DNA of 24,888 nt from a virus, in the IMG/VR virus record IMGVR_UViG_3300047357_001637, positions 1 through 24,888 of that record. One strand, written 5' to 3'. Under the pieces are notes generated by a model. That model was given only the letters and a program-made list of their open reading frames with translations, searched no databases and was not told the DNA's origin. The translations under genes and the position numbers were made by a program. Below, piece by piece: positions 6,101 to 23,016 of the stretch. Each line of letters opens with the position of its first letter. Within the stretch, counting starts at the first letter, position 1.

Positions 6101-7010
6101 AAGGTTTGGTTGTAGTACCTTCTCCGTGGCCATTGGCGCTTGAGTCAGTAAAATTCTGGACCGCACCAACTAGCGATGGTCCGATAGTTTTTCTATAACC
6201 ACCTTTCTCGGATTCATCAGGATAATCTTCGTTATATGATTCATTGCCCTGGGATGCATCTGAAGCTTTAGCTCCACCTTTCATAAATGCGGGTTTAAGC
6301 CTTTTATCTTCGGTGCTGTAACTAAGCGTTGGTTCATCAGAATCAAAGTTATTAAAATCACTACCGCCTCTTAGATTATTATCTTTAGAAAAAGAATTAC
6401 CTCCGCTCGAAAAATCATACGAACGATTATGATTACCGAAAGGTAAATTGACTAATGTGTTTGCTTTATATATTTGTAGATTTTGATAATCGAAGTCATA
6501 ATTTTGTATGTTGGAATTTATAACTAAACTGCCAATCCTTAATTGACCATACACAACAGGAATTGGTGAACCCTGTTCTGCTCGATTTTCATTTGATGAA
6601 TATAAAAAAGAGTTAGTTTCTATAATTTCGTACTCTTCACCAGTTTCCTCAATCGGATTTAATTTGTTGGCTAACTTCTGTATTCCATAACCCATCGCGG
6701 CATTAAGCCCAAAATTACCAAGAAACCCTAAACCTCCCGTCAGCATACCCCCTGCAGCCTCAAAGCTGGGCATAATTTTATATTGGCTATCTTGCAGCAA
6801 TAAGTCTGAACAGAAACTCTCTAGGATATTATCCTTGCTGTCTATAAAAACATAATTGACTCCCGAGTTTAGCTTGTGAAGATAGTATTTTTTAAAACCT
6901 TTTTTAATTGCAAATAATGCCATTAATGCTTCACGCATAGTAAGAACATCTAGACTTACCTCGGAGCCAAACAACTCTGCCATTTCGCCTTTAAATAAAA
7001 AAGTTTTCAT
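153..7010 (-). CDS. Giant tail-tip protein: gpI-like domain fused to gpJ-like host-specificity protein
   Basis: This 2285-residue protein combines two lambda-type tail proteins. Residues 1-75 resemble the small folded domain of gpI. A glycine-rich hydrophobic stretch (about 86-115) follows, then the gpI-type end with EQGSPIPVVYGQLRIGS (about 145-161). After a Ser/Asn/Gly-rich linker the gpJ pattern begins at SEGPIAGL (S376), breaks off, and resumes at LNSTPI (L1469). Later gpJ landmarks are SIKIQG, YPNTA (Y1849), KIPNGYSPSNGSYG, and NPAWIIYDLLTNPIYGLGKY (N1912), followed by a Phage-tail_3-like domain to about 2150. The roughly 1075-residue insert is beta-rich with GxGY motifs. A second insert holds two membrane-like helices. 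By analogy with gpJ it should form the distal tip, bind the receptor and close the tube. ATG 7010 has an AAGG site five bases upstream and overlaps the previous stop (ATGA). The protein is about twice the length of lambda gpJ. Confidence 0.9.
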   Translation of the reverse strand: MKTFLFKGEMAELFGSEVSLDVLTMREALMALFAIKKGFKKYYLHKLNSGVNYVFIDSKDNILESFCSDLLLQDSQYKIMPSFEAAGGMLTGGLGFLGNFGLNAAMGYGIQKLANKLNPIEETGEEYEIIETNSFLYSSNENRAEQGSPIPVVYGQLRIGSLVINSNIQNYDFDYQNLQIYKANTLVNLPFGNHNRSYDFSSGGNSFSKDNNLRGGSDFNNFDSDEPTLSYSTEDKRLKPAFMKGGAKASDASQGNESYNEDYPDESEKGGYRKTIGPSLVGAVQNFTDSSANGHGEGTTTKPYVFPPEGDADSAFRPSSKDESCISMTDLAAGGSIGPWRSQAVAANGKDMIIGERGDYQKLESIGVYRSVDILSEGPIAGLAIPNTGKSSYSGVSPNGFFNNDNGDIALGYSGSSNLRYEKKTAQVGNIIFDSDAQDTPSDPLSHFIDLTEFNQTIANKTNQITIIHSGSGYLANFTGLITGNTKDDSHPFKISVDEPRASKSASLPANESNGIFAIKNQSNGTFGLDFSNNIISQYQETGTFFDAETSNQIAITGFNLQNLSSISDVEIGKGYNSNQDTTITIEPDNAPANIKVSLKENMPNSRKSQAQAFDAGFLIGVQNENLKQIKPSFEDYFLKQPSGPFGNRSTITQTWDKFARIYCDVNNRIANYNSISSVTIEVGMSRAYDINNGGSDYKLLKVQIEFENYLHLGRAFLLIENSNENKWDSSTKYWDQKRSETGELSADWGDTFGRMQTIKGLTPSDQLNGNRQNVSFYKYAINGMDAGITHFEKIQLFAHLFDYAKHNGHENYIDVGLLLRERVFSDQVFNQFNVNTSGKLRKAELPPPPTDDTGLNHTTYIKFCPGSGSSKMNTDPTFVTDVSDPNIRFCRISSRGSFYNPNLVYRVEVYIVRKSSFGVSSDVNYRSCITNIDAFASISKDGKVDGVFITNVPDNCVYDSVSGGYTPILIKKDNNSNLANPFGDNNFSNYADIGVYLNIDPSERSQTMSVTFNSGRVSRDILKLDNESDFRFDGGNEGQDNTWTNFIQNKATGFSSPACGVAPQLVKNVFGKYVAYRDILVKGFSSPNISKTLGWMGGNEYAKIRLELEVINLNQDDNNKLNSNPFASSRWDEHFVPSANLFCTGRIKSFDLENPGGGYVDSLGNSANAQQASLNIYNDSFGVSSVTVSTINQGNLGYRPNSAITLYLGFSYENNEDLIPNSLNPILQHSKYNFNSLYTAKIELKTDSYGSISSSLDDIKIIDSGYTHNFISVPANYGEANFEDVTLNLKSTIPSGLSIDPTLPEDFLSFNEDFVASSTWTELENTNYAWYSLPESSSDWNAIYGNLEPEISFPKEALKLLVRKQDVINGSIVKIFETQAGKGFSKFPSSDNILPSSDKSSIVFNVQTDHEGRLSDISINQSIDALGYAIEDNNVEINISAPPITVAQKPAAPSVEIDKHGWARSIYLNSTPIRDKDGRFNFSNFEYDFIGGYHQNAGINTTPIQGLLPIQSSPDNPNINKDNISQGMRSLLEKEFRLPAQTHFVNYKLYGPRNNGEKDYFYTHTIKNPEISVIALNIKANQLHHIYEGDESIVYLNLNPLIGALLGFLLMKKLAETAVRTATPPDPVIIPIQGRVFVPPCSIGYGEILPSSTAIGFNRNAPSLADAADGLKSVFLESLLIGAASLAGAVFGYMVGDKFKCTDGGANFLCIKMGEIIKNSGEIWPAKLIFDVEYGIEGFAMLKRSIKIQGCATSPYIKDIILPISFDQLESDYEAQYPRSSNPELWSAFDRENTFNPVEDKRKRNRLIQFYRTTREMDPVNNGIADARNKLDAELASVTEYVSGFFSYPNTAMFASRINAKDMSNPPSREFLIKGKMVKIPNGYSPSNGSYGPDSSRANSFFNEEIAWTSNPAWIIYDLLTNPIYGLGKYGITDEQIDKWSFFEFARRADEAVDVFIDGIETKERRYMCNLYVDTEREAFSYIKDLMNIYSSKINFSGGKIYISTDKPSDPVMLFTNSNVSSDGFIYSTIPQTNRVTAATVDYLDERDNYMQKTEYVEDEAGIREHGYRHAKIAGIGITRKGEANRLATSKIMSNKIETEVISFTVGLHGGYLRIGDVIEVMDNNKVSQHSGGRISSRINDFTIEIDIPTDAITGATKIYIQNYAESTESTDSNDGNRPSQFSEYDISSMNDFEVTVAESLHQSVKNSYVWMVKNYDDSNNDPIKSSQYRIKEIIETENSQYKVTALLYDAKKYNYIDGVTYASEDDEYEGHDVDTSHIEGGES
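1909..2210 (-). other. Pair of membrane-like segments in the gpJ-like part
   Basis: Two strongly hydrophobic stretches lie in the second insert: residues about 1602-1622 (LIGALLGFLLMKKL and following) and 1676-1700 (FLESLLIGAASLAGAVFGYM). They are separated by a Pro/Gly-rich loop containing PDPVIIPIQGRVFVPP, and followed by a short segment with two cysteines (FKCTDGGANFLC). Lambda gpJ has nothing comparable between the equivalent flanking motifs, as far as I recall. They could insert into the inner membrane during genome entry or pack inside the tip before release. Confidence 0.6.
2626..5858 (-). other. About 1075-residue insertion inside the first gpJ motif
   Basis: In lambda gpJ the motif SEGPI is followed within a dozen residues by LLNSTPV. 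In this protein SEGPIAGLA (376-384) and SIYLNSTPI (1466-1474) both match, but about 1075 residues separate them. The inserted part is rich in Asn, Ser, Asp, Gly and aromatic residues, has few long helices and only scattered cysteines, and contains spaced GxGY-type turns. I recognise no enzyme family in it. It could be a receptor-binding or decorating beta structure projecting from the tip. Confidence 0.7.
2690..5620 (-). repeat. Dispersed GxGY-type beta repeat in the tail-tip insert
   Basis: Degenerate motifs of the form G-x-G-[YF] followed by a strand recur through the insert: GSGYLANF (G471), GKGYNSNQDTTITIEP (G573), GGGYVDSLG (G1157), DSGYTHNFISVP (G1266) and GKGFSKFP (G1382). Looser relatives are NLGYRPNSAITLYL and ALGYAIEDNNVEINI. 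They suggest a protein built from repeated small beta units. The copies are too diverged to be DNA repeats. Confidence 0.5.
6516..7010 (-). other. gpI-like domain at the N-terminus of the tail-tip protein
   Basis: Residues 1-165 follow the lambda gpI layout: a first strand with FKGEMAELFGSEVSLDV, a helix with REALMALFAI, strands with YYLHKL and VNYVFI, a glycine-rich hydrophobic segment, and a terminal block with AEQGSPIPVVYGQLRIGS. Lambda gpI has the corresponding AQGN-x-LPVLYGEMRVGS near its C-terminus. In lambda gpI is a separate assembly protein. Here it continues in frame into a low-complexity linker and then gpJ. The assignment rests on remembered lambda sequence, not on a search. Confidence 0.75.
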
Positions 7011-7756
7011 ACTGCCTTATACCTATATACTTTATACACTTTATTAAGGTCTTCGGGGGTAATAAATTCTTTTTTGGGCAAAGCGTTTATTACATGATGG
7101 TAAATTTGGTGAGACTCAATATAAATTGCGAGATGGTGGTGTTCCGAGACATTTGGAGACAGTACAAGTATATCTCCATATTTAATGTTGTGTTTATCAA
7201 CTTCCAAGAAATGATGATCAAGGGTATTAATTAATTTTTGATTAGATTCTGTTCTATGTCTAGCCCAGTTGTCAATTTTGTCGTGCAAGTTAATATTTAA
7301 TTTTAATAGAAAAAAATCTTTTACAAAAGTAATGCAATCTTGAAATGTAGGAATGAAAATTCTGCCTTTAAGGGGTCGCGGCTTATATAGTTTTGGGTAA
7401 TATAAATTATAACTTTTACTTTTTAAAGAGAAAACATAAGAAGGTAAGTTTAATGACTGAGATACTTCTTTATCTAATTCACTCAAATTTGAATCTACAT
7501 CATGATGGCTGTGAAAAAGAGAAATAATTCTTTTATCCTCATAAAGTTTATAAAATTCTGAATCAGAATAAGAAAAAAATCCCTTTTCGATAGTGTTTCT
7601 ACTTTTCATTTTAAGGAAATTGAAATCAGAAAAAGATTTATTAAAATAAAAAACCCCGCCAATCTCTTCATTTGGGTGAGAGAGGGCATGTTTAACGCAT
7701 TGGTTAAATGCATTATTTGGGCCAAGATCCAGGGAATCCTCCAAATGGTAATCCAT
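7007..7756 (-). CDS. gpK-like tail protein: JAMM protease plus NlpC/P60 peptidase
   Basis: This protein (249 residues from ATG 7756) resembles lambda gpK. The N-terminal half has a complete JAMM metalloprotease signature: a glutamate in NEEIGGVFYF (E30/E31), then HSH at 82-84, Ser 92 and Asp 95 in the spacing H-x-H-x7-S-x2-D. The C-terminal half is NlpC/P60-like, with catalytic Cys 141 in QDCITFVKDFF, His 208 in HHLAIYI, and a third polar residue in YHHVINALPKKE. NlpC/P60 enzymes cut peptidoglycan cross-link peptides, so the protein may act in cell-wall penetration or tail-tip assembly. The open frame extends upstream to 7894 but that part lies inside the gpL-like gene and lacks family character. 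ATG 7756 gives a 44-base overlap. The 3' end overlaps the next gene in ATGA. The start is less certain than the function. Confidence 0.88.
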   Translation of the reverse strand: MDYHLEDSLDLGPNNAFNQCVKHALSHPNEEIGGVFYFNKSFSDFNFLKMKSRNTIEKGFFSYSDSEFYKLYEDKRIISLFHSHHDVDSNLSELDKEVSQSLNLPSYVFSLKSKSYNLYYPKLYKPRPLKGRIFIPTFQDCITFVKDFFLLKLNINLHDKIDNWARHRTESNQKLINTLDHHFLEVDKHNIKYGDILVLSPNVSEHHHLAIYIESHQIYHHVINALPKKEFITPEDLNKVYKVYRYKAV

Positions 7757-8585
7757 AAACAGTTTCAAAAATTCCAAATCTAGCCCTGCATCCAGCAATA
7801 TTTTTAGGGCAAACATCTTGAGTCCAGCGTATTTTATCATCTTCTGGGTGAGTCGTAGTGTTATTCGCTTGACAAACATAATACTGATCTCCAATCTTAA
7901 CTCCTGTTCCTGCTGAATATGTTGTTGTTTTTGACCATTCCGAGATAGTCAGGGAATTATTGCAGGACAAAGGTTTGCCTGCTTTATCGGTGGCTGGCCC
8001 GCCCTTATAGCCGCAACCATGCTCGCTTCGATATTTCCATTGGCATGTATTGTATACAATTTTTCTAGCTGGAACTATACCACCTTCTTTTTCAAGTTTT
8101 GAATTTAATTCAAACGAAATAACATCAGGATTCTCTACCTGTTTTGAATTAATGACATAATGTTCTTTAGGGAATGACGCTTCTGATGGAGTGCCAAAAG
8201 GGTTGATGTTATTAGGGAAATTATTTCCATGCAAAAATTTAACGAATGTTTTAATTCTTATGACTTCATACCCTATGAAATCTTTAAAATATCTAGTTTT
8301 TAGACTAAAAAATGAATCCGTGTTGTCAAAAGTGATAGTTGGCCTAGGCAGAGAGTCTACGCTGAAATCAAAACCTTCAGCTTTACAGGGTATATGGAAG
8401 TATTCATATTTACCTTGAGCTTTACCATATTTTATGGATTGATTAAATCCGTTTTCCCCAGAATGGAATCTATATCTTTTTTCAGTTCCATTGCTATCTG
8501 ATATACCTTTTAATACAATCTCATACAGAACAACAAGTGTTGATGGCTGCATTTCAAAAAGTTCATTCTGGACTTGTTCTTGCAT
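7713..8585 (-). CDS. gpL-like minor tail protein with inserted CBM5/12-like module
   Basis: This 290-residue protein lies between M-like and K-like genes, as L does in lambda. Its C-terminal region has the gpL-type cysteine arrangement: C181 and C191 in NTCQWKYRSEHGCGYKG, and C259 and C266 in DVCPKNIAGCRARFG, then an LPFGGFPG end. Lambda gpL is reported to bind an iron-sulfur cluster through four C-terminal cysteines, so these four are the likely ligands. Between the two pairs lies an extra segment of about 45 residues resembling a small carbohydrate-binding module. Extra cysteines are C67, C208 and C238. The ATG at 8585 follows the M-like stop by 13 bases. The protein would sit in the tail tip below the tape measure. 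Assignment is strong by motif and position. Confidence 0.88.
   Translation of the reverse strand: MQEQVQNELFEMQPSTLVVLYEIVLKGISDSNGTEKRYRFHSGENGFNQSIKYGKAQGKYEYFHIPCKAEGFDFSVDSLPRPTITFDNTDSFFSLKTRYFKDFIGYEVIRIKTFVKFLHGNNFPNNINPFGTPSEASFPKEHYVINSKQVENPDVISFELNSKLEKEGGIVPARKIVYNTCQWKYRSEHGCGYKGGPATDKAGKPLSCNNSLTISEWSKTTTYSAGTGVKIGDQYYVCQANNTTTHPEDDKIRWTQDVCPKNIAGCRARFGIFETVYGLPFGGFPGSWPK
7812..7946 (-). other. CBM5/12-like module inserted between the gpL cysteine pairs
   Basis: Residues 214-258 read ISEWSKTTTYSAGTGVKIGD, then QYYVCQANNTTTHPEDD and KIRW. This fits the pattern W-x4-Y-x2-G-x2-V-x4-Y-x-C/A...P...W of chitin/cellulose-binding CBM5/12 modules, which occur in many phage tail proteins. 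The aromatic residues W217, Y223, Y235/Y236 and W254 are in the expected places. It probably forms a surface loop that touches a glycan. Confidence 0.6.
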
Positions 8586-10901: not shown

Positions 10902-11701
10902 TTTTTATTAATATATCCTATATATTGTAAATTAACTGACATCAAATCTTCACTAGCAGAGCTGAGCCCTTGGTTAGCTAATCTTGCATTTTTAATTGTA
11001 AAAGTTTCAATTGTAGAATTATCTATTGGATTAGAAAGAGATATTTCAATATCTTGCTGAGAAGGTTTAATGAGATATTCATTCATTTTTTTTAATTCAA
11101 AATCAGAGACTTCTAAGGTGAAGTTTGCTTCTTGAGTGATAGGGGAAGATCGATCAACTTGAACTGGGAAGGGAGACCCTATTTTATAAATAGGGGTTCT
11201 GTCAATTCTTGTTGTAAAAGCGAAATTTGTAATTCTATTTGTTTGATAACCTGAAACATTTAATGAAATAGATCCTTGATTTGGAATTTGTATTGGAGGG
11301 TGAGCATTTACACCAGAGGCGTCAATGCCAGAACCTATGTCTCCGTATACCACAATGCCCGCTTGAACCTGAGGTATCGATCCCATGCTAGCGGAAAAAG
11401 AATATTCATTTAAGTAGCCACTTTCAAATCCAAAACTTTTATCTCCATAATTAATGCTACCACTGATTGGGTGATCACCCGTGTAATTAAGCAAGGGATC
11501 TTCCCCTATAAAGTATTTAGAAATAGAAAAGTTACCAACGAGAGGGCCTTGCATGACTGGGTAGACATGACCTTGACCAATGATATTGATAGGAGCTTCC
11601 TGAACTGCATAGCTGCCTGCAATTGATGTTACTCCAGATAAAAGAACTCCAGATAAATAAAATTGTTGCTCATAATTGGATATTGAGTTTTTATCAACCA
11701 C
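10898..11701 (-). CDS. Tail structural protein, tube/distal-tail-like, paralogue 1 (GTG start)
   Basis: This 267-residue protein starts at GTG 11701, eight bases inside the end of the tape measure gene. The start is chosen because GGGAGG lies eight bases upstream, the best ribosome site in this part of the window; upstream codons of the open frame only mirror the tape-measure sequence. It is beta-rich: FYLSGVLLSGVTSI, QGPLVGNFSISKYF, YLNEYSFSASMGSIPQV, VYGDIGSG, IQIPNQGSISLNVSGY and IDRTPIYKIGSPFPVQVD are visible. Several blocks match the next gene, so the two are diverged duplicates. No enzymatic motif is seen. The fold may be a tail-tube-like beta sandwich, but that is inference from pattern and position. 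Confidence 0.82.
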   Translation of the reverse strand: MVDKNSISNYEQQFYLSGVLLSGVTSIAGSYAVQEAPINIIGQGHVYPVMQGPLVGNFSISKYFIGEDPLLNYTGDHPISGSINYGDKSFGFESGYLNEYSFSASMGSIPQVQAGIVVYGDIGSGIDASGVNAHPPIQIPNQGSISLNVSGYQTNRITNFAFTTRIDRTPIYKIGSPFPVQVDRSSPITQEANFTLEVSDFELKKMNEYLIKPSQQDIEISLSNPIDNSTIETFTIKNARLANQGLSSASEDLMSVNLQYIGYINKK

Positions 11702-14700
11702 GCAACATTCCTCCCATTCTTTTTTCTTGTGACATAACTCCGACAACTGCATCTTTAATTTTCGCAGCCATCGCTTGATCTCCAGCTTCTCCACCAGAAG
11801 TTGAAGACTCTCCGCTGGAAGAGACACTTATATTGACCGTAACATTTCCTGAAGAAGGCGAGGCTGAACCCCCTCCAGACTGATCTCCACCGACTATGCC
11901 TCCTTGATTAAATCTCATCGCATTTAATTGATCAAAGAAGCCTGGGTTTTGTTTTTCAATATTATTTACACTGGAGGCTTTTATAACATATTCTCCCCTA
12001 TCAAGCATAACTGGGCCAACTTTATCTATTCCTGCTGGACCTCTAACTTTACCGCCAGAACTCAACTCCTCATAGTTATTAAGTAGTGTGTTTCTCTTGT
12101 CGAAACTAGGGTTACTAGCCCCTTGACCCATCATATTTTCCATTATATTGGTTCCACCAGAACCTCCAAAGCTGTCAACTGAACATTGACCCCCCGCACA
12201 AGATGGGGCTACTGGACTTGCATCGGACTGAATTAATTGCTCAGCAGTTACCCTATCGACTCCAGCTCTTTTATTCGATTTATTTATTGAATTTTGATAT
12301 GCTGCAAATGCATCAGGTTTTTTCTCGCGTAGATCTCCTAAATTATTGATGCCTTGCTTATTCCATCTTTCTACAGTTTTCTCTGTGCCTCCTCGAGTTT
12401 CATACAGCCCTTTTACTCCTTTTATCATTTGATTAAATCCAGCAGTACCCACTGCCATTGTTAGGCTATTGGTGATGCCTGACCACATCTGAGCTCTATC
12501 TTGAACTTTTTGATTTTGCTGTTGCACATCAAAGTCATATTTCTTAAGTAAATAATCTCCGTATTGCTTAGCGTAACTATCTCCGCCTTGTCTAGCTGGA
12601 GAAGACATCATGTTGCTAGATGGATCTATATTTAAATCTGAGGCAGTATTTAATCTAGCTGTTGAAGGAGCTTGCGGGGGTTCTGGATCATTGCTTGTAT
12701 CTCGATCTTCGTAATTAGCATAACCTGCACCAAAAGCTGTTCCTGTGCCTTTTGCTATTTTAGTCCAACTGGAATCATCTCCATTAGAGCTCAATGAATC
12801 ACTAGCAAAATTTTTAACCTTGTCCCATTGTTTACTTAGCCATCCTCCTTCACTCATATGTAACATTGGAGGCATTCGGCCCGCGTCGGATGTCGACATG
12901 TCAAATGAATCGTTATTTGGTTCGTCATACAATGCACTTAGAGAGCCAGTTTTATTTATTTTATCTAAAGTGCTGGGACCTAGCTTGTCAACCACTTTTT
13001 TGCGGACGACATATTCTCCAGATGTTAGCATTGCAGGAGTCTGGTTGGTTTTACCTCCCCCAGCATAGCCTCCTGAATTATAACCAACAATCCCTCCTTT
13101 ATTTAAGCCAAGAAGTTCAAAAATGCCAGTAGTAATTTGTGCCGTAGCTCTATCTAGTAATTTATCACTAATAGCCTTAGCTATACCAGCAAAAAACTGA
13201 CCAAACATATCACCCATATCTTTAGTACTGTCACCCATCATTTGCACCATATCTTTAAGGCCTTGCTTTACGCTGTCAAAAGTTGTATTTGCTAGAACTT
13301 CATTGAATCTTTCGAATTCAACATTAGCTTCTGCAATTCTTACCGCTATGGTGTCAGAAAATAATGTATTACCGTCTCCAGAGTTGTTGCTGATATTGTT
13401 CTCTTTTCTAGCTCGAGCTAATTCCACAGATGCTTCTGCCCCTCTAATAGTGTTCCCCATTTCCGCATAACCTGCGACTTTACCCGCCGCTGTTTGAACA
13501 TTAGCTGTAGCAGTTAAGCCGTCTCTTTCTACAGCATTTAAACCTTCTTGGAAAAATCCTTTAGCCTTTATTTTTTCTCTCAATCGGTCCATTTCTTCTG
13601 CGAATTTAGTTTGGCTTTGAGTTAATTGCTCGGTCGCTTCAAGGGCATAGAAGTTTGCAGCTTTATTAGCTTCGTATTGAGCTCTTAAGTTTATGGTTGA
13701 ATCGGTCAGTTTTGACACTTCGTCTTCGGTACGATAATCAAAAGTGTTTCTGCCACTTTCATCTCTTTTAAGATTTGCCTGAGTTGTCGTTGCTCGATCA
13801 GTAATTTGATTGCTGATAGCTCCTCTTTCATTTTTTACTTTTTGAGCAATAAGCTTGGCATACAATTCAGTATTCTTTCGAAGTTCTGCTTCGGCTTCTA
13901 TACGGGCACCTTGAGTGACTAGAGATTTATATTCTTGCGTTAGTTCTTCTGTAAGCGTTGTGGCCATAGCTTTTGTCGCTTTTTGTCTATATTCTTGACT
14001 ATCTAAAGTAGCAAAGGTTGCGTCAGAGAGTAGCTTTGTCATACCTGCAGTATGAGTGACTGCATCTAGTTCTTCGTGAAGCTTTTCGCTCAATAATTCA
14101 GCTGGATTGACAATATCTTGAAAGGCTGAAACTCTTTCTTTTGCGGCAGCTAAACCGCCTGCCGATAAGTTTAGTTCTTTCTCAATTGTTGATAGATTTT
14201 TCTCTCGTAGAGTTTTTTCTGCTCCAGCATTCTCTTTCTTTTCTTCTGTTATTCTTTGTTGAATACTTAAACCTAAATCAGATAGATCAGTTTGCTCATG
14301 GATAATGCCAAGTTCCTTGCTCTGTAAAACTTCTAAGTTTTCTTTTAATTTAGCAATTTTGTCTTCTGAGCTTAGCACTTTTAGCATTTTATTGTTGGCT
14401 TCGTCACTATTATGAACACCCTCAAGTTCTGAATGTAATTTTAGTAAAGTGGCTTTTACAATTTTATCTTGAGTTTCATTAGCTTTTCTTGCTAAAGCTT
14501 CTCTTGTTGAGATTAAGTTTGTGTCAAATGCGGTATCTGGATCTAGCTGTATCGTTTCAACTCGACCATCACCGCTAAACTGTGTTGTCGTAGTACTATT
14601 TAAATTTTGAAATACTTGATTTCCTTTATCTTTATTTAAGAAATCTTGTAAGATTTTTCTTCTCGCCGAAACATCTTGATTATTAATTGATTCTATTTCA

Positions 14701-17700
14701 TTATTGTATTGGTTGTCAATTTCTTTACTTTTCACTGCGAGTTGAGCTTGAACTGTTGCAGCACTGGACATAATGCCCAGGGAATCTTTAATCTTATTTC
14801 TTAGATTGTCTGAAGCTATCATATTACCTTGATCCATTTTTAATAAATTTAAACTATTTTCTGATTGCATTGTCTCAATCTTGAGATTATCTAAAATGTT
14901 AGCTCTTTCTTGAGCAATTTGTCGCAGGATATCTTGACCAAGTGTATATTTTTTTTCGGTGTCTTTCGCTGCTTTTGCGAATTCTTTAGCGAGTTCAGAA
15001 TTTTCTTTAAAAAATTCAGCCATGTCTGATAAACTCATTTCTCCATCAATTGCTGCCTGAACTTGAGCTTTTAAAACCATAGGTAGATCAGATTCTGAGA
15101 TAGATTTCTTAAATTCGTCCATTACACCCATTTCTTTCACATCAAAATATGTACTGTTATTGGTTCCGCTGTCCCTTATGGATACTCTATTGTTGCCAGG
15201 GGCCTTTCCTGGCACAGTTTTTTCTCTTTGTTGTTGAACTTCCGCGATGTCGACTGCGCCTTGTTGCACAATACCGATCAATGATTTGTAGACATTTTCA
15301 ACATCATTTTTATCACCACCAATGCCTAAATTAGCAGATCTTGCCATGGCAACTTTTTGAATCTCCTGAACAATAGGATCAGCATCTTTTCCACCAAAAC
15401 CAAGATACCCTTTTGATCCTTGAGCTGATGTAAAAGCCTGCATGCTTGCAGTTGCAGATAAAACTTGCTGGTAATCGAATGTTGCTTCCTGAAGCTTTTT
15501 CAAGCCTTCTGCCGTCCCTGAAGTCATTATCTGAATTTCGGATTCAGACAAATTTAATGCGGTAGCTAGGGTTGTAGCTTGACTGGCTAAATTACTTTCT
15601 TGTTTTGCTAATTCACCTGATAGCTTAAGTCTTTTCATTTCTCCATCAAAAGTTTGAGCTTGAGACGAATTGGATAGTTCTAATAATTGATTCCTAGTAC
15701 TCTCAATTTCTTGATGTGCGGATATTGCATTGCCCAGAGCATCAATACCTTTGGAGGTTTTTTCTGCAGATTTTCTTAAAGTATCCAGTGGGCCATCTAG
15801 TAAATCTGTATTTTCTTTTATAGATTGAAATACTGGAACAAGAGCTGAAGCTACTGCAACGAGCCCCATTAAGGGTCCTGCCGCCATCATACCCAGCCCT
15901 CCAGCCATTCCCGCCATTTTCCCCATTTTGCCGCCTTTGCCTGAATTTTTAGATTGATTATACTTATCTTTACCTCTTGCTGATAGACCTTTTGTGTCTA
16001 CAGCTGTCATCAATAACATTGCTTGCGAAACTCCTTGAACCGCACTATTCATAATTGCCATGCTTGCGCCGAAGGCTCCCATCTTTTCCGTCGCTCCTCC
16101 CATTACTCCTTCGAGTGCATATGTTATAGTGGTTAGACCGATCATTCTTGTCATTAAATCGCTGCTATTTTGTTGGACTTCATCCATTCCTTTCCCAGCA
16201 TTTGTCGAACCTTTTCCTGTAGCTTCTAGACTGTCGGCGGCATTATTGGCCGTTTTATCTAGCTTTTTCAATCCTTTTGAACTATTAAAACCGCCTCTAT
16301 TGCCAGCTGCTCCTCGCTGACCGATATAATTCGGAACGATACCTCCGCTTGCTCCATGAGTTTTTGGATCCATACCCATCGATATTGCTCGATTAACACC
16401 TTGCGAGCCAGACTTAGGTTCGTCTCGAGTATTCGCAACTAACAAGCCTGCTGGATTCTTTGGGTTCTTGAGTCTATTGTCTTGATCTATGTAAATGTCG
16501 GCGGCAGAACCTCGCTCTCTCAGAGCTTCTTTCTCTCTTGAAATAGCATCTTCTAATGGGTTTGCAAAGTTAGGAATTAAACCTTGACTTTTCCTTGGTT
16601 TATTGAGAGCCGTAAAATGATCTTGGTTGAATTTTATACCAAATCGACCATCTGTATTACCGTATGCTGGCTTCTTAATTAAGCCAGTAAGGTTACGAAA
16701 AGTTTTTGCATTAACACCGTTTGTTGCAAAGGGGTTAAATATGGTTGAACTTAAATAGGGGCTATCATTACCTACACCAACAATTTCTGCAAAGCTGGGT
16801 AATTTTTTTGTAAGATCCAGGGAGCCAGTATTTACCGCATCTTGAATCATATCTTTGCTCACTAAACCTTTAGTCATAAGCTTGTTTAAAACAAGTCGAG
16901 GCCCATGAGTGGCTCCAGAATATGCATCTGCATATTTCCAGTACCGTGTAAGATGATTAGGGCCAGTTTGACCATGTGGAGTTTTAAGTTTATTTTGATT
17001 AGGTATATTTCTTTTAGCCCACTTCGTATCGAAAAAATCTAACTCAGCTGGACCCACTCCAGTCCACCCTTTTGTTACATAAGTATTTGCAATAGCTTTT
17101 TCGTAAGCATGACCAGCTTTTGTGTTAAAAGCTATAGATTGACCTGAACTAGCTTGATCACTTATTCGTGTTACAGATAAAGAAGCGACAGGCTTTATAC
17201 TATCAAAATCTATAGAATTACCGCTTTTTGAAATGTTTGCAATTCTACCTTTGAGCTTTGTAGATTTAGGGCTTTGCCCTGGATCAGGCTTAAAAACTTG
17301 ATTGCGACCAACTTTATAAGCATGTCTTGCATCAATGAGTTGACTGCCTTTCCTACCTTTCGTTAAAGTAAATTTTTTATTAAAGTTAGGAACCAAACCA
17401 TTACTATAATGCGAATGGTTTTTGCTTCCACTTTTATCTTCAATCTTCTTCTTATCTTCAGTTATTTCTTTTATGCTATCATCAACTGCACCAGATGATT
17501 TTTGGTTTTGCCAATTTTGTGACGGAAAGTTAGGTATGAAACCTTTGGAGAATCCGCCTCTAAACATTTTAATTTCATCAAGCTCTACCATGTCACTAGA
17601 TGAAGGGTCGAGCCCCATCATTCTCAGATACTTAGATACTTGTTTTTCTTCGCCAGGTATATAATCCATTGAAGACATATACGGATCACCCTCTTCAAGC

Positions 17701-20700
17701 ATTTGCTTGTTCTCGAGGATGGATTCACTAATTTTACCAGGAGTCATGGATCCAGATATTCTCATTTTAGGTATGCGTTTACCTCGACCTCTAGCTTGAT
17801 TTAATAGTTTGTGTCCTTCCACTAATAACCTTGGTATTCTTGGGCCAACAACAAATCCAGCACTAATGTCCGTATAAGGTTTTCCCGTTTTTGCTGATTG
17901 CTCTATATCTTTATATATCCTTCTTAATTCTGAACTACCTTTTCCTCTGCTAGGACTAATCCAACTAAGATCTAATTTTCTAGGTTTATTGCTCTTTTTA
18001 TCTTGAGTTTTGTTTGATTGATTCTTAGAAGGAATCATAAAATTAGGAATATGACCTTCGCTTAACAATGAATCATAAGAGTCAACTTTATCTACAGCAA
18101 AAATTCCATGTTTATTATAATGTTTAATGTGCTTATTAACGTCTTTAATAAAAAGATTATTCGTGCTAACTGTACGTTTTGAACTAGTTACTCCTGCCAT
18201 TGCGGAATAATGCTTGGAACCTCGATTTCCAAGTCCAATAGGATTGTTTCTTTTCGCAGATTCTTTATCTTTAGAATACTGAGATCCCATTTTCTTGAAT
18301 CTGTCAAGGAATGTTTGTGCCGCTTTTGGACTTACCATTTCTGGATGAGCTTTAGACATTTCACTTAAATAATTTGCAAAACCAGAAAGACCCATATAGT
18401 CAGAAGAAAGTCCGTATGAGCCTTTTTTCTTATCTATGTCCCATGTTATTTTATTAGCAAAATTAGGAATTAACCCATTAAACAAGCCTGCTCTCTTGAC
18501 CATCTCAGGGTTGACATCTTCGTAACCAAGCGAACTTAACATCTGAGATGAGTCGTCAAGCTTTTTTCCTTGCATTTTTTGAGCTAAATCAGAGCGACCT
18601 TGCTTTGCTAGAAAATCTTCTATATACCTATCACTGTAAAGCCTAATACTTTTTGCTATTAAATTAGGAGCGGTATACTTTCCGTATTTTGATTCTATAG
18701 GTTTGCGACCAGGGCTAAAAAAGTCAATTTTGAAATTTTCATCACCTTTGCCTTTTTGCCTCCCTTTAGGCGTGTAAGCTCCAGTCCAGGTTGGGTGGTA
18801 GCCTTTTTGCTGAAGTGAAGATTTAAATAGAGCATCTTCTTGTGTATTTCCGACGATCTTATGCTGGTTCTTGTTACCAAAACCTTTTGCGGATTTTAAT
18901 TTTTTTTGTTGCGAAGCAATCGATTTCCTTTGTTTCGAGGGAATTGCGGATGATTGATCTGAGAAATATACTTGTCGCTGTAAGACATTAATACCCATTT
19001 CTTTCAACGCTGCAAATTCATCAGAATAAGTAGCGGCGCTTTTCATTACGTTATCGAGAGAAGCTTCTAAAGTTTTCCATCCTTTTATTTTTTCACCTCT
19101 AAAATTAGATGCAGTAGTCTCGGTGATCATTTTTGCTTTAGGTAGTTTTAGTATGTTTGTTCCAGCTAGTCGTTGAGCTTCTAGAGCAAAATTGGGAATA
19201 AAACCATTATAGCTATAAGGATCAAAGCCATGCTTGTCTGAGAAATCTTTTTCATATTGTTTTCCAGCTTTACTGTTTTTAGGTGGCATTATTGCAGGTT
19301 GATCCATGCCTTCAAAACTTTTTACTTCTTCGTTTTTATTATATACTACCCTGCCAAGTTTAGGTATTGACATTGTGGAAACTTGACCTGCTACATAGCC
19401 TCCTTTTTTAGCGCCCTCTCTTTCTTTGATCTCTTCTATTGGGGTCGCTTTCAATGAGTAATTAGGAATAAGTCCAGTAGCTACATTTTTACCTGTGGGT
19501 TTATTCGAACCTTTAATGCCCGCAACTGTTAAATTTCCCTGAACCCCACTAGCTCTTAAAAGTGGAGCCATATCTCGAGCTATTGATCTTTGTAATTCAA
19601 TCTGCTTTGTTTGAGATCTTAAAGTTTCTAATAAAATTTGTTCTTGTTTGTTTTTATTTCCAGCATTAGAAAGAAGTTCCGCACCTAATACTTTATTATC
19701 AATCATGGCAGCAACTATAGCTTCTTGAATTTCTAACTCTTGCTGTTTCACAGTTTTAATTTGAAGCAAATCCTGTAATGAGGTTTTTGCAAATTTTAAA
19801 GCATTAGCGAAGAGCTTACCAAAGATCAACACCAATGCAACCATGCCTGGACCAGCAAGAACATTACCCAACCCCCTAGCTATTCCTTGTGCGAAATCAG
19901 CACCCAAACTTTCACCCTCTTTTGCTCCAAGCATATCAGAAATAAATCCTAATATATTGTTAGCTGATTCTAGAAATTCTTTGAGTGCTGGAGCGATAGT
20001 TAATTCTCCAAGATTTGCCGTTAATTCTCGAACTGTTGTAAGGGTTTGGTTAGCTATAGAAGAAAGGGTTTTTTGCAGCATGGCATTTTTTTGATACGCT
20101 TCATTGCTTGCTTGGGATGAAGTCATGGTAGCCTGCGAATAAATGGAAGTTTCTTTACTCAAGTCTTTGAGCGCCGCTTTTAAAACGTTGATTTGGAAAA
20201 CTCCACCAACTTGCTCTGCTACAGCAGCTTTTGTTGAGACAGCTAAATTATCATAAGATGAAGAAAGATTTTGCAAAACAGTTAAGGCTGGCAAAGTGTT
20301 ACCTCTAATATCTCTAACGGCAATACCCAGCTCTTCCAATCTATCTAAAGTAGAACTTCTTTGAATCCTTGTGAAAATTGTCTTAAAACTATTACCAATA
20401 ACAGCACCACCTCGAGCAGTAATTTGTTGAGCTGCTGTTACTGCACCTATTAATTGATCAAAGTTTACTCCTGCATCTTGAGCTACCGCACCTGCACGAG
20501 CTAAGGCATTAACAAGGTCATCCGCACTAACCGCAAACTTAACATCGACGGCTGCCAATTTATTGATAATTTCTGTTGTAGTTAAACCTACATCGGCAAA
20601 ACCGTTGACTGCTGCAGTTAAACCTTTAACTGATTCTGCAGCCTTTAGGCCAGTAAGTCTAGTTAATATAAGAGCATCATTGGTTCGTTTTAAAGTTTCT

Positions 20701-21131
20701 TCCATTGACAAACCTTGTCGAGAAAATTCTAAAGCTGCTTCAGCTGCAACTTCTAACGATTGAGAGGTGTTTCTAGCAACATTAAATAAACCATCTCCAA
20801 ATTTTTGAAGGTTATCTGCGGTAGTTCCTAATACTGCATTGATATCTGCAAGAATTTTTTCTACTTTAGTAGCTTGAATAACAAGCTGAGCAAATGAAGC
20901 ACTAACACCCCCAATTATAGCAGCTGATGCTCCGAAGGCAATAACACGAGCATTTGATGCTTCAAGAGACTTGGTGAACTCATTTGCTTGTGCGGACATC
21001 TTGCCAAGAGGCCTGTTGAAGTCTGCAGCGTTAACTTTAATAGCAAGTCCACGGGCATTAATTTTTTTAACCGCGACCTGAACGCTAGACTCTAAGCCTA
21101 CTTGATAAGTTTTTAATCCTAATCCTTGCAT
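11694..21131 (-). CDS. Tail tape measure protein with inserted modules
   Basis: At 3145 residues this is the largest gene. Residues about 60-350 match the TP901-type tape-measure core: IIGGVSASFAQLVIQATKVE, EAALEFSRQGLS, LAAVDVKFAVSADDLV, ITARGGAVIGNSFKTIFTRI. A hydrophobic helix follows near 440. From 553 to 1602 the protein changes into Lys/Gly-rich, mostly non-helical modules marked off by eight G-x-[IV]-P-N-[FY] motifs. Two of these modules resemble PD-(D/E)XK nucleases. From about 1650 to 2650 it is long helix and coiled coil with Gly/Ala-rich hydrophobic stretches. The C-terminal 470 residues contain two GEYV boxes and Gly/Ser-rich tails. If only helical parts set length at about 1.5 angstrom per residue, the tail would be some 300 nm or more. 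ATG 21131 has AAGGA about nine bases upstream. Function in tail length and genome passage is well established for the family. Confidence 0.95.
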   Translation of the reverse strand: MQGLGLKTYQVGLESSVQVAVKKINARGLAIKVNAADFNRPLGKMSAQANEFTKSLEASNARVIAFGASAAIIGGVSASFAQLVIQATKVEKILADINAVLGTTADNLQKFGDGLFNVARNTSQSLEVAAEAALEFSRQGLSMEETLKRTNDALILTRLTGLKAAESVKGLTAAVNGFADVGLTTTEIINKLAAVDVKFAVSADDLVNALARAGAVAQDAGVNFDQLIGAVTAAQQITARGGAVIGNSFKTIFTRIQRSSTLDRLEELGIAVRDIRGNTLPALTVLQNLSSSYDNLAVSTKAAVAEQVGGVFQINVLKAALKDLSKETSIYSQATMTSSQASNEAYQKNAMLQKTLSSIANQTLTTVRELTANLGELTIAPALKEFLESANNILGFISDMLGAKEGESLGADFAQGIARGLGNVLAGPGMVALVLIFGKLFANALKFAKTSLQDLLQIKTVKQQELEIQEAIVAAMIDNKVLGAELLSNAGNKNKQEQILLETLRSQTKQIELQRSIARDMAPLLRASGVQGNLTVAGIKGSNKPTGKNVATGLIPNYSLKATPIEEIKEREGAKKGGYVAGQVSTMSIPKLGRVVYNKNEEVKSFEGMDQPAIMPPKNSKAGKQYEKDFSDKHGFDPYSYNGFIPNFALEAQRLAGTNILKLPKAKMITETTASNFRGEKIKGWKTLEASLDNVMKSAATYSDEFAALKEMGINVLQRQVYFSDQSSAIPSKQRKSIASQQKKLKSAKGFGNKNQHKIVGNTQEDALFKSSLQQKGYHPTWTGAYTPKGRQKGKGDENFKIDFFSPGRKPIESKYGKYTAPNLIAKSIRLYSDRYIEDFLAKQGRSDLAQKMQGKKLDDSSQMLSSLGYEDVNPEMVKRAGLFNGLIPNFANKITWDIDKKKGSYGLSSDYMGLSGFANYLSEMSKAHPEMVSPKAAQTFLDRFKKMGSQYSKDKESAKRNNPIGLGNRGSKHYSAMAGVTSSKRTVSTNNLFIKDVNKHIKHYNKHGIFAVDKVDSYDSLLSEGHIPNFMIPSKNQSNKTQDKKSNKPRKLDLSWISPSRGKGSSELRRIYKDIEQSAKTGKPYTDISAGFVVGPRIPRLLVEGHKLLNQARGRGKRIPKMRISGSMTPGKISESILENKQMLEEGDPYMSSMDYIPGEEKQVSKYLRMMGLDPSSSDMVELDEIKMFRGGFSKGFIPNFPSQNWQNQKSSGAVDDSIKEITEDKKKIEDKSGSKNHSHYSNGLVPNFNKKFTLTKGRKGSQLIDARHAYKVGRNQVFKPDPGQSPKSTKLKGRIANISKSGNSIDFDSIKPVASLSVTRISDQASSGQSIAFNTKAGHAYEKAIANTYVTKGWTGVGPAELDFFDTKWAKRNIPNQNKLKTPHGQTGPNHLTRYWKYADAYSGATHGPRLVLNKLMTKGLVSKDMIQDAVNTGSLDLTKKLPSFAEIVGVGNDSPYLSSTIFNPFATNGVNAKTFRNLTGLIKKPAYGNTDGRFGIKFNQDHFTALNKPRKSQGLIPNFANPLEDAISREKEALRERGSAADIYIDQDNRLKNPKNPAGLLVANTRDEPKSGSQGVNRAISMGMDPKTHGASGGIVPNYIGQRGAAGNRGGFNSSKGLKKLDKTANNAADSLEATGKGSTNAGKGMDEVQQNSSDLMTRMIGLTTITYALEGVMGGATEKMGAFGASMAIMNSAVQGVSQAMLLMTAVDTKGLSARGKDKYNQSKNSGKGGKMGKMAGMAGGLGMMAAGPLMGLVAVASALVPVFQSIKENTDLLDGPLDTLRKSAEKTSKGIDALGNAISAHQEIESTRNQLLELSNSSQAQTFDGEMKRLKLSGELAKQESNLASQATTLATALNLSESEIQIMTSGTAEGLKKLQEATFDYQQVLSATASMQAFTSAQGSKGYLGFGGKDADPIVQEIQKVAMARSANLGIGGDKNDVENVYKSLIGIVQQGAVDIAEVQQQREKTVPGKAPGNNRVSIRDSGTNNSTYFDVKEMGVMDEFKKSISESDLPMVLKAQVQAAIDGEMSLSDMAEFFKENSELAKEFAKAAKDTEKKYTLGQDILRQIAQERANILDNLKIETMQSENSLNLLKMDQGNMIASDNLRNKIKDSLGIMSSAATVQAQLAVKSKEIDNQYNNEIESINNQDVSARRKILQDFLNKDKGNQVFQNLNSTTTTQFSGDGRVETIQLDPDTAFDTNLISTREALARKANETQDKIVKATLLKLHSELEGVHNSDEANNKMLKVLSSEDKIAKLKENLEVLQSKELGIIHEQTDLSDLGLSIQQRITEEKKENAGAEKTLREKNLSTIEKELNLSAGGLAAAKERVSAFQDIVNPAELLSEKLHEELDAVTHTAGMTKLLSDATFATLDSQEYRQKATKAMATTLTEELTQEYKSLVTQGARIEAEAELRKNTELYAKLIAQKVKNERGAISNQITDRATTTQANLKRDESGRNTFDYRTEDEVSKLTDSTINLRAQYEANKAANFYALEATEQLTQSQTKFAEEMDRLREKIKAKGFFQEGLNAVERDGLTATANVQTAAGKVAGYAEMGNTIRGAEASVELARARKENNISNNSGDGNTLFSDTIAVRIAEANVEFERFNEVLANTTFDSVKQGLKDMVQMMGDSTKDMGDMFGQFFAGIAKAISDKLLDRATAQITTGIFELLGLNKGGIVGYNSGGYAGGGKTNQTPAMLTSGEYVVRKKVVDKLGPSTLDKINKTGSLSALYDEPNNDSFDMSTSDAGRMPPMLHMSEGGWLSKQWDKVKNFASDSLSSNGDDSSWTKIAKGTGTAFGAGYANYEDRDTSNDPEPPQAPSTARLNTASDLNIDPSSNMMSSPARQGGDSYAKQYGDYLLKKYDFDVQQQNQKVQDRAQMWSGITNSLTMAVGTAGFNQMIKGVKGLYETRGGTEKTVERWNKQGINNLGDLREKKPDAFAAYQNSINKSNKRAGVDRVTAEQLIQSDASPVAPSCAGGQCSVDSFGGSGGTNIMENMMGQGASNPSFDKRNTLLNNYEELSSGGKVRGPAGIDKVGPVMLDRGEYVIKASSVNNIEKQNPGFFDQLNAMRFNQGGIVGGDQSGGGSASPSSGNVTVNISVSSSGESSTSGGEAGDQAMAAKIKDAVVGVMSQEKRMGGMLRG
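11945..12057 (-). repeat. Tape-measure GEYV box, copy 2
   Basis: This encodes GGKVRGPAGIDKVGPVMLDR, then GEYVIKASSVNNIEKQNPGF. It shares the order G-G-x...P-[AV]-M-L-x2-G-E-Y-V-[VI]-[RK]-x2-x-V with copy 1, about 345 residues earlier. Two such boxes may pack against each other or against tip proteins at the end of the tube. Confidence 0.7.
12955..13100 (-). repeat. Tape-measure GEYV box, copy 1
   Basis: This encodes GGIVGYNSGGYAGGGKTNQ, then TPAMLTSGEYVVRKKVVDKL and DKINK. A glycine-rich turn followed by P-[AV]-M-L-x2-G-E-Y-V-[IV] and a short helix is a recurring element near the C-terminus of tape-measure proteins. A second copy lies at 11945-12057. Confidence 0.7.
16584..17381 (-). other. 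Tape-measure module with degenerate PD-(D/E)XK-like motif
   Basis: Residues 1251-1516 lie between the sixth and seventh boundary motifs. HAYEKAIANTY (E1344), AELDFFD (D1365) and KYADAYSG (D1402-A-Y1404) line up with the E, D and E-x-K positions of the other nuclease-like module. The catalytic lysine position is occupied by tyrosine. Both modules have NT at the start of the helix and a DFF strand, so they look like diverged copies. This one may be structural, DNA-binding or inactive. Confidence 0.45.
18475..19190 (-). other. Tape-measure module with complete PD-(D/E)XK-like motif
   Basis: Residues 650-885 lie between the second and third boundary motifs. Within them E765 (QEDALF, helix), D803 (FKIDFF, strand) and E813-S-K815 (PIESKYG, next strand) give the E...D...E-x-K order of PD-(D/E)XK nucleases. 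A helix with NLIAKSIRLYSDRYIEDFL follows. The family is very diverse and short motifs can arise by chance, but the strand-turn-strand setting fits. If active it would cut DNA; timing relative to ejection is unknown. Confidence 0.5.
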
Positions 21132-21161: not shown

Positions 21162-22166
21162 TTATTTTTTTGGAATGCCGCTTAATTCCATCAAATCTTC
21201 CATACTGAGAGAGCCTCCTCTGTCTTTCGCGGCCTTTTGCAAAGAAACTCCTGCTTTATCAGAAGGTCTTTCAAGTCCAGCATATTCATAATCCTCTTCG
21301 GATGCTCCAAACAATGTTGCTCCATCTTGATCTTTATCAAGTTTGCTCTTCATTTTTTCCTTCGCCTCATCACTGATACTTCCATAATCTAATAATGCCT
21401 GAGGATCTTTTTTGATTTTCTCTGGAATATGTTTATTATTTTCAAATATATTTTTGAATATTTTTGTATATACAATAAGCTTGAGTTGATTGTAAGTTAA
21501 GCGAACAACTGGGCTACCAAAAAAGCCAACAGTATCATCACTGAAAGGAAAGTAAATATAATAAAAATCCTGAAGAATCATTTCTTGTATTTTTAATTCT
21601 TCAAAAGCAAGAAAAGTTTCATTGTATGTTGAGATTAATTTTTGAACTTCTTCGGGGTAAAGCTCATTAAAATCGTCTTCTTCTGGGAATAATTTATTTT
21701 CTAGTTTTGGATCTGTATAAAATGATTTAATTATATAATAATCGTTTGACCTTTTGTCTGCATATGCTTCAGCATTAACTCCCATTAATTCAGTTTTTTT
21801 CTGCTGAAGTTTATTAATTTTATCCCGTGTTTCATTGATAGTTTTATTTTGCCTATCAATATCAGATTTTAAAACAAGCTGGGTTTTATTAGCTTGTAGC
21901 TGACTAATAAAAAGGTCTAGCCTTTTAATCTCGTCTTCGTCAGAATCGCTCCAATGACCATCTTTTTTAAGGGCAGCCAAAACTTCCTCTTCAGTAGGTA
22001 TACCTCTCTTTATAGCATCAGTTAAATAGTTGGATCGTATTTCATCGATGTCAACTTGATCGAGAGATGTTAAATGTTTTATATAATAAGTTTGACCGTC
22101 TACCTTTGCTTTTGTGTGACCTTCTACGATCTCCTTGAAGATCTTCCTGTAGTCAGTAATTTCCAC
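21162..22166 (-). CDS. Charged protein in tail-chaperone position, 334 residues (GTG start)
   Basis: I do not recognise the family with certainty. The gene lies directly upstream of the tape measure, where tail assembly chaperones are usually encoded. The N-terminus reads VDGQTYYIKHLTSLDQVDID. Residues about 75-128 form a charged coiled coil (DEIKRLDLFISQLQANKTQL and KTINETRDKINKLQQKKTEL). The middle is acidic and aromatic (DFYYIYFPFSDD, RLTYNQLKLIVYTKIFKNIF), and the C-terminus has a Gly/Ser-rich tail. The start is GTG 22166, one base after the previous stop, with GAAGAAGG about 11 bases upstream. The gap to the tape-measure ATG is 30 bases. A chaperone or tape-measure-binding role is inferred from position only; it is longer than lambda gpG or gpGT. 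Confidence 0.85.
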   Translation of the reverse strand: MEITDYRKIFKEIVEGHTKAKVDGQTYYIKHLTSLDQVDIDEIRSNYLTDAIKRGIPTEEEVLAALKKDGHWSDSDEDEIKRLDLFISQLQANKTQLVLKSDIDRQNKTINETRDKINKLQQKKTELMGVNAEAYADKRSNDYYIIKSFYTDPKLENKLFPEEDDFNELYPEEVQKLISTYNETFLAFEELKIQEMILQDFYYIYFPFSDDTVGFFGSPVVRLTYNQLKLIVYTKIFKNIFENNKHIPEKIKKDPQALLDYGSISDEAKEKMKSKLDKDQDGATLFGASEEDYEYAGLERPSDKAGVSLQKAAKDRGGSLSMEDLMELSGIPKK

Positions 22167-22167
22167 A

Positions 22168-23016
22168 TTATAAAGTACCTTCTTCTATGTCTTTTTCTAA
22201 ATTCTCGAAATCTTCTTTGGTAGCTGAAACACTAAAATACCAAAAACTAACGAAAGCCGTTAACTTATCGTAAACTAAATCAAGCAATGGATCCTCATCC
22301 TCTTCTAGGTCATAAAGATAGTTTAACTTATCATCAAAAGTATCGCCCTTGAAATAAGGTTCTAATTCTCCTTTTTCATTTTCTAAGTTAGTAAGAGATA
22401 ATAAATACCAAGAGATGACTTTAGTTTGAGCTTTACTGTCTGCAGTATGATTTAATAGTGCAGAAAAGTTGGTCTCAGTTTTTGCAATATCTCTTCTTAA
22501 TTGAGCCATTTCTTCAACTGTCTCTTTTTGCTTATCTGAGAATTTATTTTTATCGCTAATTTTCCACGATGTAAATTCTGTTTGGAGTTGGCCAAGTCTG
22601 CCATACATCTCCGCTAAAGCTTTTGCTTCCGCTTCACTCATGATACCTCCAGTATCGCTATACTTATTAAGGAGCATTGCTTTGGTTAAGATGCCATCTT
22701 TAACACAGCGACTCATCTCAATACTGTATTCCATATCCGCTTCTTCCATTTGGCGGCGAGTTGGCTGTTTAATCACAAAAGAATAAGGGGCATTTTCTTT
22801 TTCTTTACGGGTTTCTTGTACAATTTGGGTTTCTGTTACTTTTTGTTTTTCAGTCTCAACATACTTTTCTTCTTGCCCTTCAGCATTTTTGCGAGTCTTT
22901 TCGACTTCTACATCTTTTTCAACTTCGACTTTTTTCTCAACATCGACTTGTTTTTCGATCTCTTCTTCTAAGAAGACTTTAAATCTATAAATTTCTTTAT
23001 TTGTTTTTGTATACAT
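22168..23016 (-). CDS. Hypothetical tail-assembly-region protein with Glu/Lys/Val repeats, 282 residues
   Basis: I do not recognise this gene. The N-terminal 75 residues are very charged, with short repeats such as VDVEKKVEVEKDVEVEKT followed by ETEKQKVTETQIVQETRK. Then comes a block with PYSFVIKQPTRRQMEEADME and CVKDGILTKAMLLNKYSD, a helical centre with EMAQLRRDIAKTETNF, and an acidic C-terminus with YLYDLEEDEDPLLDLVYDKL. It has no signal peptide or obvious catalytic motif. ATG 23016 is preceded by AAAGGA with eight bases between. It ends one base before the 334-residue gene, so the two are probably translationally coupled and may act together, possibly like the G and GT pair, though no classic frameshift site is seen. 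Confidence 0.85.
   Translation of the reverse strand: MYTKTNKEIYRFKVFLEEEIEKQVDVEKKVEVEKDVEVEKTRKNAEGQEEKYVETEKQKVTETQIVQETRKEKENAPYSFVIKQPTRRQMEEADMEYSIEMSRCVKDGILTKAMLLNKYSDTGGIMSEAEAKALAEMYGRLGQLQTEFTSWKISDKNKFSDKQKETVEEMAQLRRDIAKTETNFSALLNHTADSKAQTKVISWYLLSLTNLENEKGELEPYFKGDTFDDKLNYLYDLEEDEDPLLDLVYDKLTAFVSFWYFSVSATKEDFENLEKDIEEGTL

Follow-up and report, generated by a model that had tools for sequence, protein, structure and literature searches.

The tape measure gene and its eight motif copies

The stretch of DNA analyzed here (the window) is an IMG/VR virus contig of 24,888 bases, record IMGVR_UViG_3300047357_001637. The open reading frame (ORF) at positions 11694-21131, on the minus strand, was matched by the PhageMin_Tail family (PF10145) at residues 119-310 (E=5e-22) and by the tape measure protein (TMP) families PHROG 4211, 14917, and 28, with values down to 1.5e-40. 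M-, L-, and K-like minor tail genes come downstream of it, and two chaperone-like ORFs (22168-23016 and 21162-22166) lie upstream. As judged from these matches, ORF 11694-21131 is the gene for a siphovirus TMP. The evidence presented throughout is computational, and the contigs of the related phages are often incomplete.

The window TMP carries eight copies of the motif G-x-[IV]-P-N-[FY], which begin at residues 553, 643, 886, 1026, 1197, 1245, 1517, and 1597. An initial annotation of the window had placed eight motifs at 16326-19475, separated by 42 to 266 residues. Both values were reproduced, the first motif starting at base 19475 and the last ending at base 16326. When the window TMP was shuffled, the motif was matched 0.003 times on average, with a maximum of 1 in 2000 shuffles; moreover, it was absent from all other frames of the window. 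The motif-bearing region, called here the cargo region, had also been described as basic and rich in Gly and Pro, where a coiled-coil ruler should be helical. Its composition relative to the N and C parts of the protein agreed with this description in the window and in the relatives. In the window TMP, the net charge fraction was +0.061 in the motif region vs +0.011 in the N part and -0.016 in the C part, and Gly plus Pro made up 14.2% vs 9.1% and 11.2%, respectively. Helix propensity was lower in the motif region than in the N and C parts, both in the window and across the relatives.

When the N-terminal domain and the first, second, and last modules (a module being the stretch from one motif to the next) were used as queries, 98 nonredundant ORFs with at least two motifs were obtained, the first motif lying mostly at residues 540-650. 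Since these ORFs had been gathered by similarity, IMG/VR was also scanned for the DNA pattern of GFIPNFA alone, and 80 loci were listed and read. Among the matches listed, 72 of the 80 lay inside ORFs longer than 300 aa, and the other 8 fell in short frames and looked like chance occurrences. The TMP N-terminal domain is present in 32 of the 34 listed ORFs that extend 450 aa or more beyond the first motif on its upstream side. Per 1000 aa, the motif occurred 6.1 times within the cargo region, compared with 0.065 times in the remainder of these TMPs and 0.028 times in other ORFs. The clustering in TMPs, for which a motif search across viral proteins had been proposed as a test, was thereby borne out by the unbiased scan.

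Architecture of the cargo region

The cargo occupies a fixed place in the TMP. An opening linker domain of approximately 85 aa is followed by variable modules and then by a related closing linker domain of approximately 78 aa; both linker domains were put into family F0 by clustering. The number of exchangeable modules between them ranged from one to about ten. For the 89 TMPs whose 3' end is complete, the N part measured 516 +/- 96 aa; most values were 525-550 aa, and the low ones came from ORFs truncated at the 5' end. The cargo ranged from 268 to 2277 aa and the C part from 909 to 2851 aa. In TMP pairs with similar N parts, most of the length difference could reside in the cargo. The cargo of L040 and L125 differs by 952 aa and the C part by 5 aa, that of L135 and L143 by 1127 aa and 102 aa, respectively, and L039 and L112 differ by 610 aa in the cargo vs 27 aa elsewhere.

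Modules are exchanged as whole units

By simple clustering, 487 modules fell into 46 families and 78 singletons. The families have many different neighbours, nuclease and non-nuclease families alike, and the same families occur in different orders, such as F8-F7-F11 in L020, F7-F8-F11 in L045, F11-F8-F7 in L081, and F7-F11-F8 in L083. With the motif residues masked, the blocks of homology between TMPs began no more than 10 aa from a motif in 65% of cases (14% at random) and finished no more than 15 aa from a motif in 85% (18% at random). Furthermore, L005 and L006 share 98.2% DNA identity up to a motif, at which L005 carries one additional module of 266 aa, exactly from motif to motif; the module after this additional one is identical in L006, where it lies directly 3' of the motif. 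These comparisons show that modules come, go, and change order as intact units delimited by the motif. Such exchange spans hundreds of related viruses. Adjacent modules of the same family were seen in L157 (F33-F33, aa 1933-2075) and L039 (F19-F19, aa 656-993), which suggests module duplication.

The ratio of nonsynonymous to synonymous substitution rates (dN/dS) among the compared modules, most pairs being linker domains, ranged from 0.025 to 0.51 with a median of 0.09, and the medians of the exchangeable families were 0.05-0.32. These values show that the modules are functional proteins under purifying selection.

Enzyme signatures in the modules

Module 2 of the window TMP belongs to family F2, in which the pattern E ... 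D ... E-x-K is invariant in 20 sequences that are 30-43% identical to the window. Its residues E226, D264, E274, and K276 in alignment A5 correspond to TMP residues 765, 803, 813, and 815. In families F1 and F6, G-x-x-x-E ... D ... (D/E)-x-K is kept in 25 sequences at 13-51% identity, and F13 and F40, judged by eye, have a PD-(D/E)XK pattern too. At least three divergent module families therefore carry putative PD-(D/E)XK nuclease signatures. As in the PD-(D/E)XK superfamily, the E of the helix, the D of the strand, and the (D/E)xK are invariant in these module families; however, the modules are too divergent to be recognized by Pfam or Foldseek here. By profile match alone, a module of one of these families was found in 95 of 117 TMPs.

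Other signatures were seen in the relatives. In family F5, which is absent from the window, YRG, SGxxS, and ExE are invariant in 10 sequences, and this is the R-S-E signature of ADP-ribosyltransferases (ARTs). Family F11 weakly matches GNAT acetyltransferases (Pfam E=5e-5), and there are single modules with matches to DUF7178 and PcfJ at the Pfam cut-off. Module 6 of the window may belong to the class formed by F12, F21, and F28. Nine invariant columns, including G, D, D, H, and K, were present in an 11-sequence alignment with this class; however, the hhalign probability was just 54%, a weak profile match, and a pattern search for relatives of module 6 found none. No relatives of the short module 5 were found by clustering and comparison with the relatives. 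The window TMP thus has one nuclease signature and one possible second enzyme, and its relatives have nuclease, ART-like, and GNAT-like modules. Taken together, these patterns support the view that many modules are enzymes, above all PD-(D/E)XK nucleases, with R-S-E ART-like and GNAT modules in some phages.

For the model of the opening linker plus module 2, ParB-like structures stood near the top of the Foldseek lists for PDB and BFVD, with E values of 0.8-0.9 that are not significant. They possibly concern the linker domain and were not used.

The motif as a probable protein-level joint

In the 588 copies of the motif, F, L, Y, or H usually fills position 2, I or V position 3, and F or Y position 6. 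Small residues are preferred just upstream, and A comes next in half of the copies. At the first boundary, 22 of 72 TMPs retain no more than G-x-[IVL]-P, PN[FY] being lost. At the closing boundary, 121 of 144 proteins carry the complete motif, and a P-[NS]-F core persists in most of the remaining ones shown.

An AlphaFold model of aa 540-897, built from 20 sequences, had a mean pLDDT of 77 and comprised two confident domains. Motifs 2 and 3 lay in linkers with pLDDT below 50, and motif 1 at the edge of such a segment. In this prediction, two motif copies are thus placed in low-confidence linkers between confident domains and not in internal strands. Given the clustering in TMPs and the linker placement, neither of the contrary results named in the initial annotation, a chance frequency of the motif elsewhere or copies that are all internal strands of one continuous domain, was found. 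One continuous domain comprising modules and motifs was unsupported by the model of aa 540-897.

Within a gene, the motif copies shared codons about as often as expected from codon usage for G, N, and F, and moderately more often for I, V, P, and Y. Since codon identity was mostly near expectation, the peptide is mainly what selection keeps, and the idea that the motif is a DNA recombination site was weakened by this test. The minimum reading of the motif would be a protein-level joint. Conservation at the protein rather than the DNA level fits a protease site and a binding site or threading joint alike.

Distribution of the motif

Three cultured phages have TMPs with the same N-terminal domain (HMM E values of 1e-50 to 1e-58), in which neither the motif nor the opening linker domain was found. 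Among 50,697 cultured phage records, none matched the cargo region, the opening linker, the ART-like module, window module 4, or the further module that was searched from L006. No paper on the motif together with a TMP was found in the open-licence literature. The motif is a signature of a large and apparently uncultured group of phages. In the host searches, matches were obtained solely in contigs of metagenome-assembled genomes (MAGs) binned as Halobacteriovorax and Flavobacteriaceae and were too weak for host assignment. The Halobacteriovorax MAG contig L180 (71,679 bases) is probably phage L101 itself and gives a host hint at best.

Other features of the window

The coordinates of the features are collected in Table 1. 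In 73 of 80 related TMPs, a hydrophobic transmembrane (TM)-like segment precedes the cargo by less than 250 aa, and in just 32 of the 80 does one lie within 300 aa after it.

Table 1. Features of the tape measure gene in the window, with residue numbers of the encoded protein
Feature	Coordinates	Strand	Basis
Tape measure protein (TMP), 3145 aa	11694..21131	-	PF10145, TMP PHROGs, minor tail genes after it
PhageMin_Tail domain, aa 119-310, conserved N part of TMP	20202..20777	-	Pfam match
Hydrophobic TM-like segment, aa 420-438, before cargo region	19818..19874	-	Hydropathy
Module 1, aa 553-642, conserved opening linker domain, motif 1 GLIPNY	19206..19475	-	47-58% identical in relatives; separate small predicted domain
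Module 2, aa 643-885, predicted PD-(D/E)XK nuclease, motif 2 GFIPNF	18477..19205	-	Invariant E, D, ExK; confident separate predicted domain
Module 3, aa 886-1025, family F10, motif 3 GLIPNF	18057..18476	-	7 members, neighbours differ
Module 4, aa 1026-1196, family F26, motif 4 GHIPNF	17544..18056	-	4 members; profile match, 148 columns, to part of a module of L017
Module 5, aa 1197-1244, short, motif 5 GFIPNF	17400..17543	-	Clustering and comparison with relatives
Module 6, aa 1245-1516, possible distant F12/F21/F28 member, motif 6 GLVPNF	16584..17399	-	Alignment and weak hhalign match
Module 7, aa 1517-1596, conserved closing linker domain, motif 7 GLIPNF	16344..16583	-	45-59% identical in most relatives; alignment A1
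Motif 8 GIVPNY, closes cargo region	16326..16343	-	Closing motif kept in relatives
Hydrophobic TM-like segment, aa 1742-1760, after cargo region	15852..15908	-	Hydropathy

The two ORFs that directly precede the TMP gene (21162-23016, minus strand), of 282 and 334 aa, lie where tail assembly chaperones sit. The 334-aa ORF has a GTG start just after the stop of the 282-aa ORF, with a two-base overlap or shift, in another frame. A Pfam scan of both gave nothing above the cut-off, and they are putative tail assembly chaperones by position only. On the same strand, 7007-7894 encodes a lambda K-like protein that matches NlpC/P60 (E=1e-5) and, weakly, Prok-JAB, and in which a JAMM-type HSH-x7-SxxD stretch can be read; it is a possible candidate for a tail-tip protease. 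A 2285-aa protein (153-7010, minus strand) occupies the position of a lambda J-like central tail protein and matches Phage-tail_3 (PF13550). It starts with MKTFLFKGEMAELFG, which resembles a lambda gpI-like start; the protein is possibly a fusion of the I-J type.

Discussion

We consider it probable that the region between the linker domains is an exchangeable effector array within the tail ruler, which is delivered at infection. The idea of a modular cargo, put forward in the initial annotation, is well supported by the exchange of whole units at the motifs, the purifying selection, and the enzyme signatures in many modules. TMPs fill the lumen of the tail tube (PMC11313276), the lambda TMP assists the genome in crossing the inner membrane, where bacteria target TMPs (PMC13190303), and ejection proteins are able to refold after passage through a narrow channel (PMC8954989); therefore, enzymes carried as an array in the TMP would arrive together with the DNA or ahead of it. 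The TMP, filling the tube, would leave as the DNA channel opens, and the biology of TMPs suggests that the array would reach the cell envelope or the cytoplasm ahead of the phage DNA. The modules would refold there, and their targets would be nucleic acids and proteins of the host or of competitors, in takeover or counter-defence. For nucleases sent before the phage DNA, the candidate targets would be host DNA, RNA, and rival elements, modified phage DNA being spared. The motif would act at the protein level as a joint. Placed in a flexible linker between modules that fold on their own, it would let any module pair with any neighbour, and it may also be read by a protease or a chaperone.

Several observations weigh against the effector array. 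Twenty-two of the 117 TMPs have no recognized nuclease module, and most modules have no match in Pfam, PADLOC, or the characterized PHROG families. A search of PDB with the profile of the ART-like family F5 returned nothing, and the model of the ART-like module was poor (mean pLDDT of 48). Foldseek comparison of the model of the opening linker and module 2, a two-domain query of moderate confidence, with PDB and BFVD gave nothing significant. Moreover, the median difference in the C part was at least as large as that in the cargo in most identity classes, and the C-part length also varies between lineages; size variation is therefore not confined to the cargo.

What the joint does may be read in more than one way. 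A phage or host protease may cut at the motif during assembly or ejection and free the modules as effectors, a possibility we take seriously without expecting it. A short, strongly conserved peptide stands at every internal boundary in a predicted linker, is conserved as peptide and not as DNA, and is nearly absent elsewhere in the TMP. The neighbouring K-like protein has the NlpC/P60 and weak JAB matches mentioned above, and metallopeptidase processing has been proposed for the polyvalent proteins (PMC5512222). However, a dedicated protease was not found: no HExxH peptidase family was present among the modules (HExxH occurs in 2 of 487), and no Pfam peptidase or LPD domain was matched in the modules scanned. 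K-like proteins are common in siphoviruses without the motif. Furthermore, PN[FY] is lost at the first boundary in the TMPs noted above, so release there would need another site, and the same conservation fits a binding or folding joint. A bolder form of this proposal is a tail-borne polyprotein magazine, in which cleavage at G-x-[IV]-P-N-[FY] would separate the enzymes on their way out of the tube. Nucleases and protein-modifying enzymes, in a set that is specific to each phage and quickly reshuffled, would then act in the host before the first phage DNA arrives; we hold this to be rather doubtful. That the motif instead binds a tail assembly chaperone or the tube lumen, spaced so as to keep the modules extended in the tube, seems unlikely to us. 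A repeated aromatic/hydrophobic linear motif in linkers would suit such binding, as would the filling of the lumen by TMPs (PMC11313276), and domains of 140-500 aa would need to unfold to fit the narrow tube. Nevertheless, the TMPs of cultured phages with the same N-terminal domain lack this motif, and its spacing is highly irregular, from 8 to over 1000 aa.

Two further explanations dispense with effectors. If the modules were spacer or virion-structural domains counted in the ruler and the nuclease-like signatures were relics, their location in a structural protein and the lack of a recognized function in most of them would be accounted for. However, the catalytic residues are invariant at 13-51% identity, their loss in most members was tested for and not seen, and the modules are under purifying selection. 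In several close pairs, moreover, the cargo shifts by about 1000 aa and the N and C parts barely do; at 1.5 A per residue this would amount to about 140 nm of tail. We regard this explanation as improbable. Equally poor are the prospects of a selfish origin. On this view, the nuclease modules would be elements of homing type that carry their own coding DNA from one TMP gene to another, with the motif serving them as recombination site. In its favour, no module type is more frequent than the nucleases, the codons of I, V, and P in the motif show a slight excess of identity, and nuclease genes are reported to lie at exchange boundaries in phages (PMC10448857). Nevertheless, non-nuclease modules are shuffled equally, the motif codons for G, N, and F are not homogenized, and the modules stay in frame in a large structural protein, in which no splicing element was seen.

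The effector array resembles several known systems in part. The polyvalent proteins of phages and conjugative elements (Iyer et al. 2017) combine several disparate domains, including ART and GNAT enzymes, in a single large polypeptide that is encoded by a late gene, associated with the virion, and proposed to be injected along with the DNA (PMC5512222), and the window TMP is likewise encoded among late virion genes. In contrast, the array here sits inside the tail ruler at a fixed site, bracketed by two conserved linker domains and a repeated motif, and the metallopeptidase processing domain and LPD domain of polyvalent proteins were not found in the modules scanned; the text of that paper does not contain "tape measure" (PMC5512222). 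The Sle1/Tme-type effectors of actinobacterial contractile injection systems are TMP-related proteins with an exchangeable functional domain carried in the tube (PMC13277306); however, they have one C-terminal domain, in place of an internal multi-module array in phages. Neither the polyvalent proteins nor the Sle1/Tme effectors, as described in their papers, have an internal motif-delimited array. The TMP of Bacillus phage Stills shares the N-terminal TMP family (HMM E=3.5e-58) and has extra catalytic domains, but these are annotated as wall-active LysM and lysozyme domains, and neither the motif nor the opening linker domain is present. T4 Alt and the N4 virion RNA polymerase are also virion-packaged enzymes injected with the DNA (PMC5512222); however, Alt is packaged in the head, and neither protein belongs to a tail ruler or an interchangeable array.

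TMPs have usually been treated as rulers and DNA conduits. Here, the TMP appears as a hold for exchangeable cargo, in which the insertion site is defined, the linkers are standard, and the cassettes follow a grammar; this arrangement is common in environmental virus contigs. The modules may offer a large set of uncharacterized phage effector domains to be screened against host defences, and the arrangement would be a natural design for loading cargo into tail tubes. Bacteria do target TMPs, as SNIPE does (PMC13190303). The array makes it testable whether phages send enzymes into the cell before their DNA.

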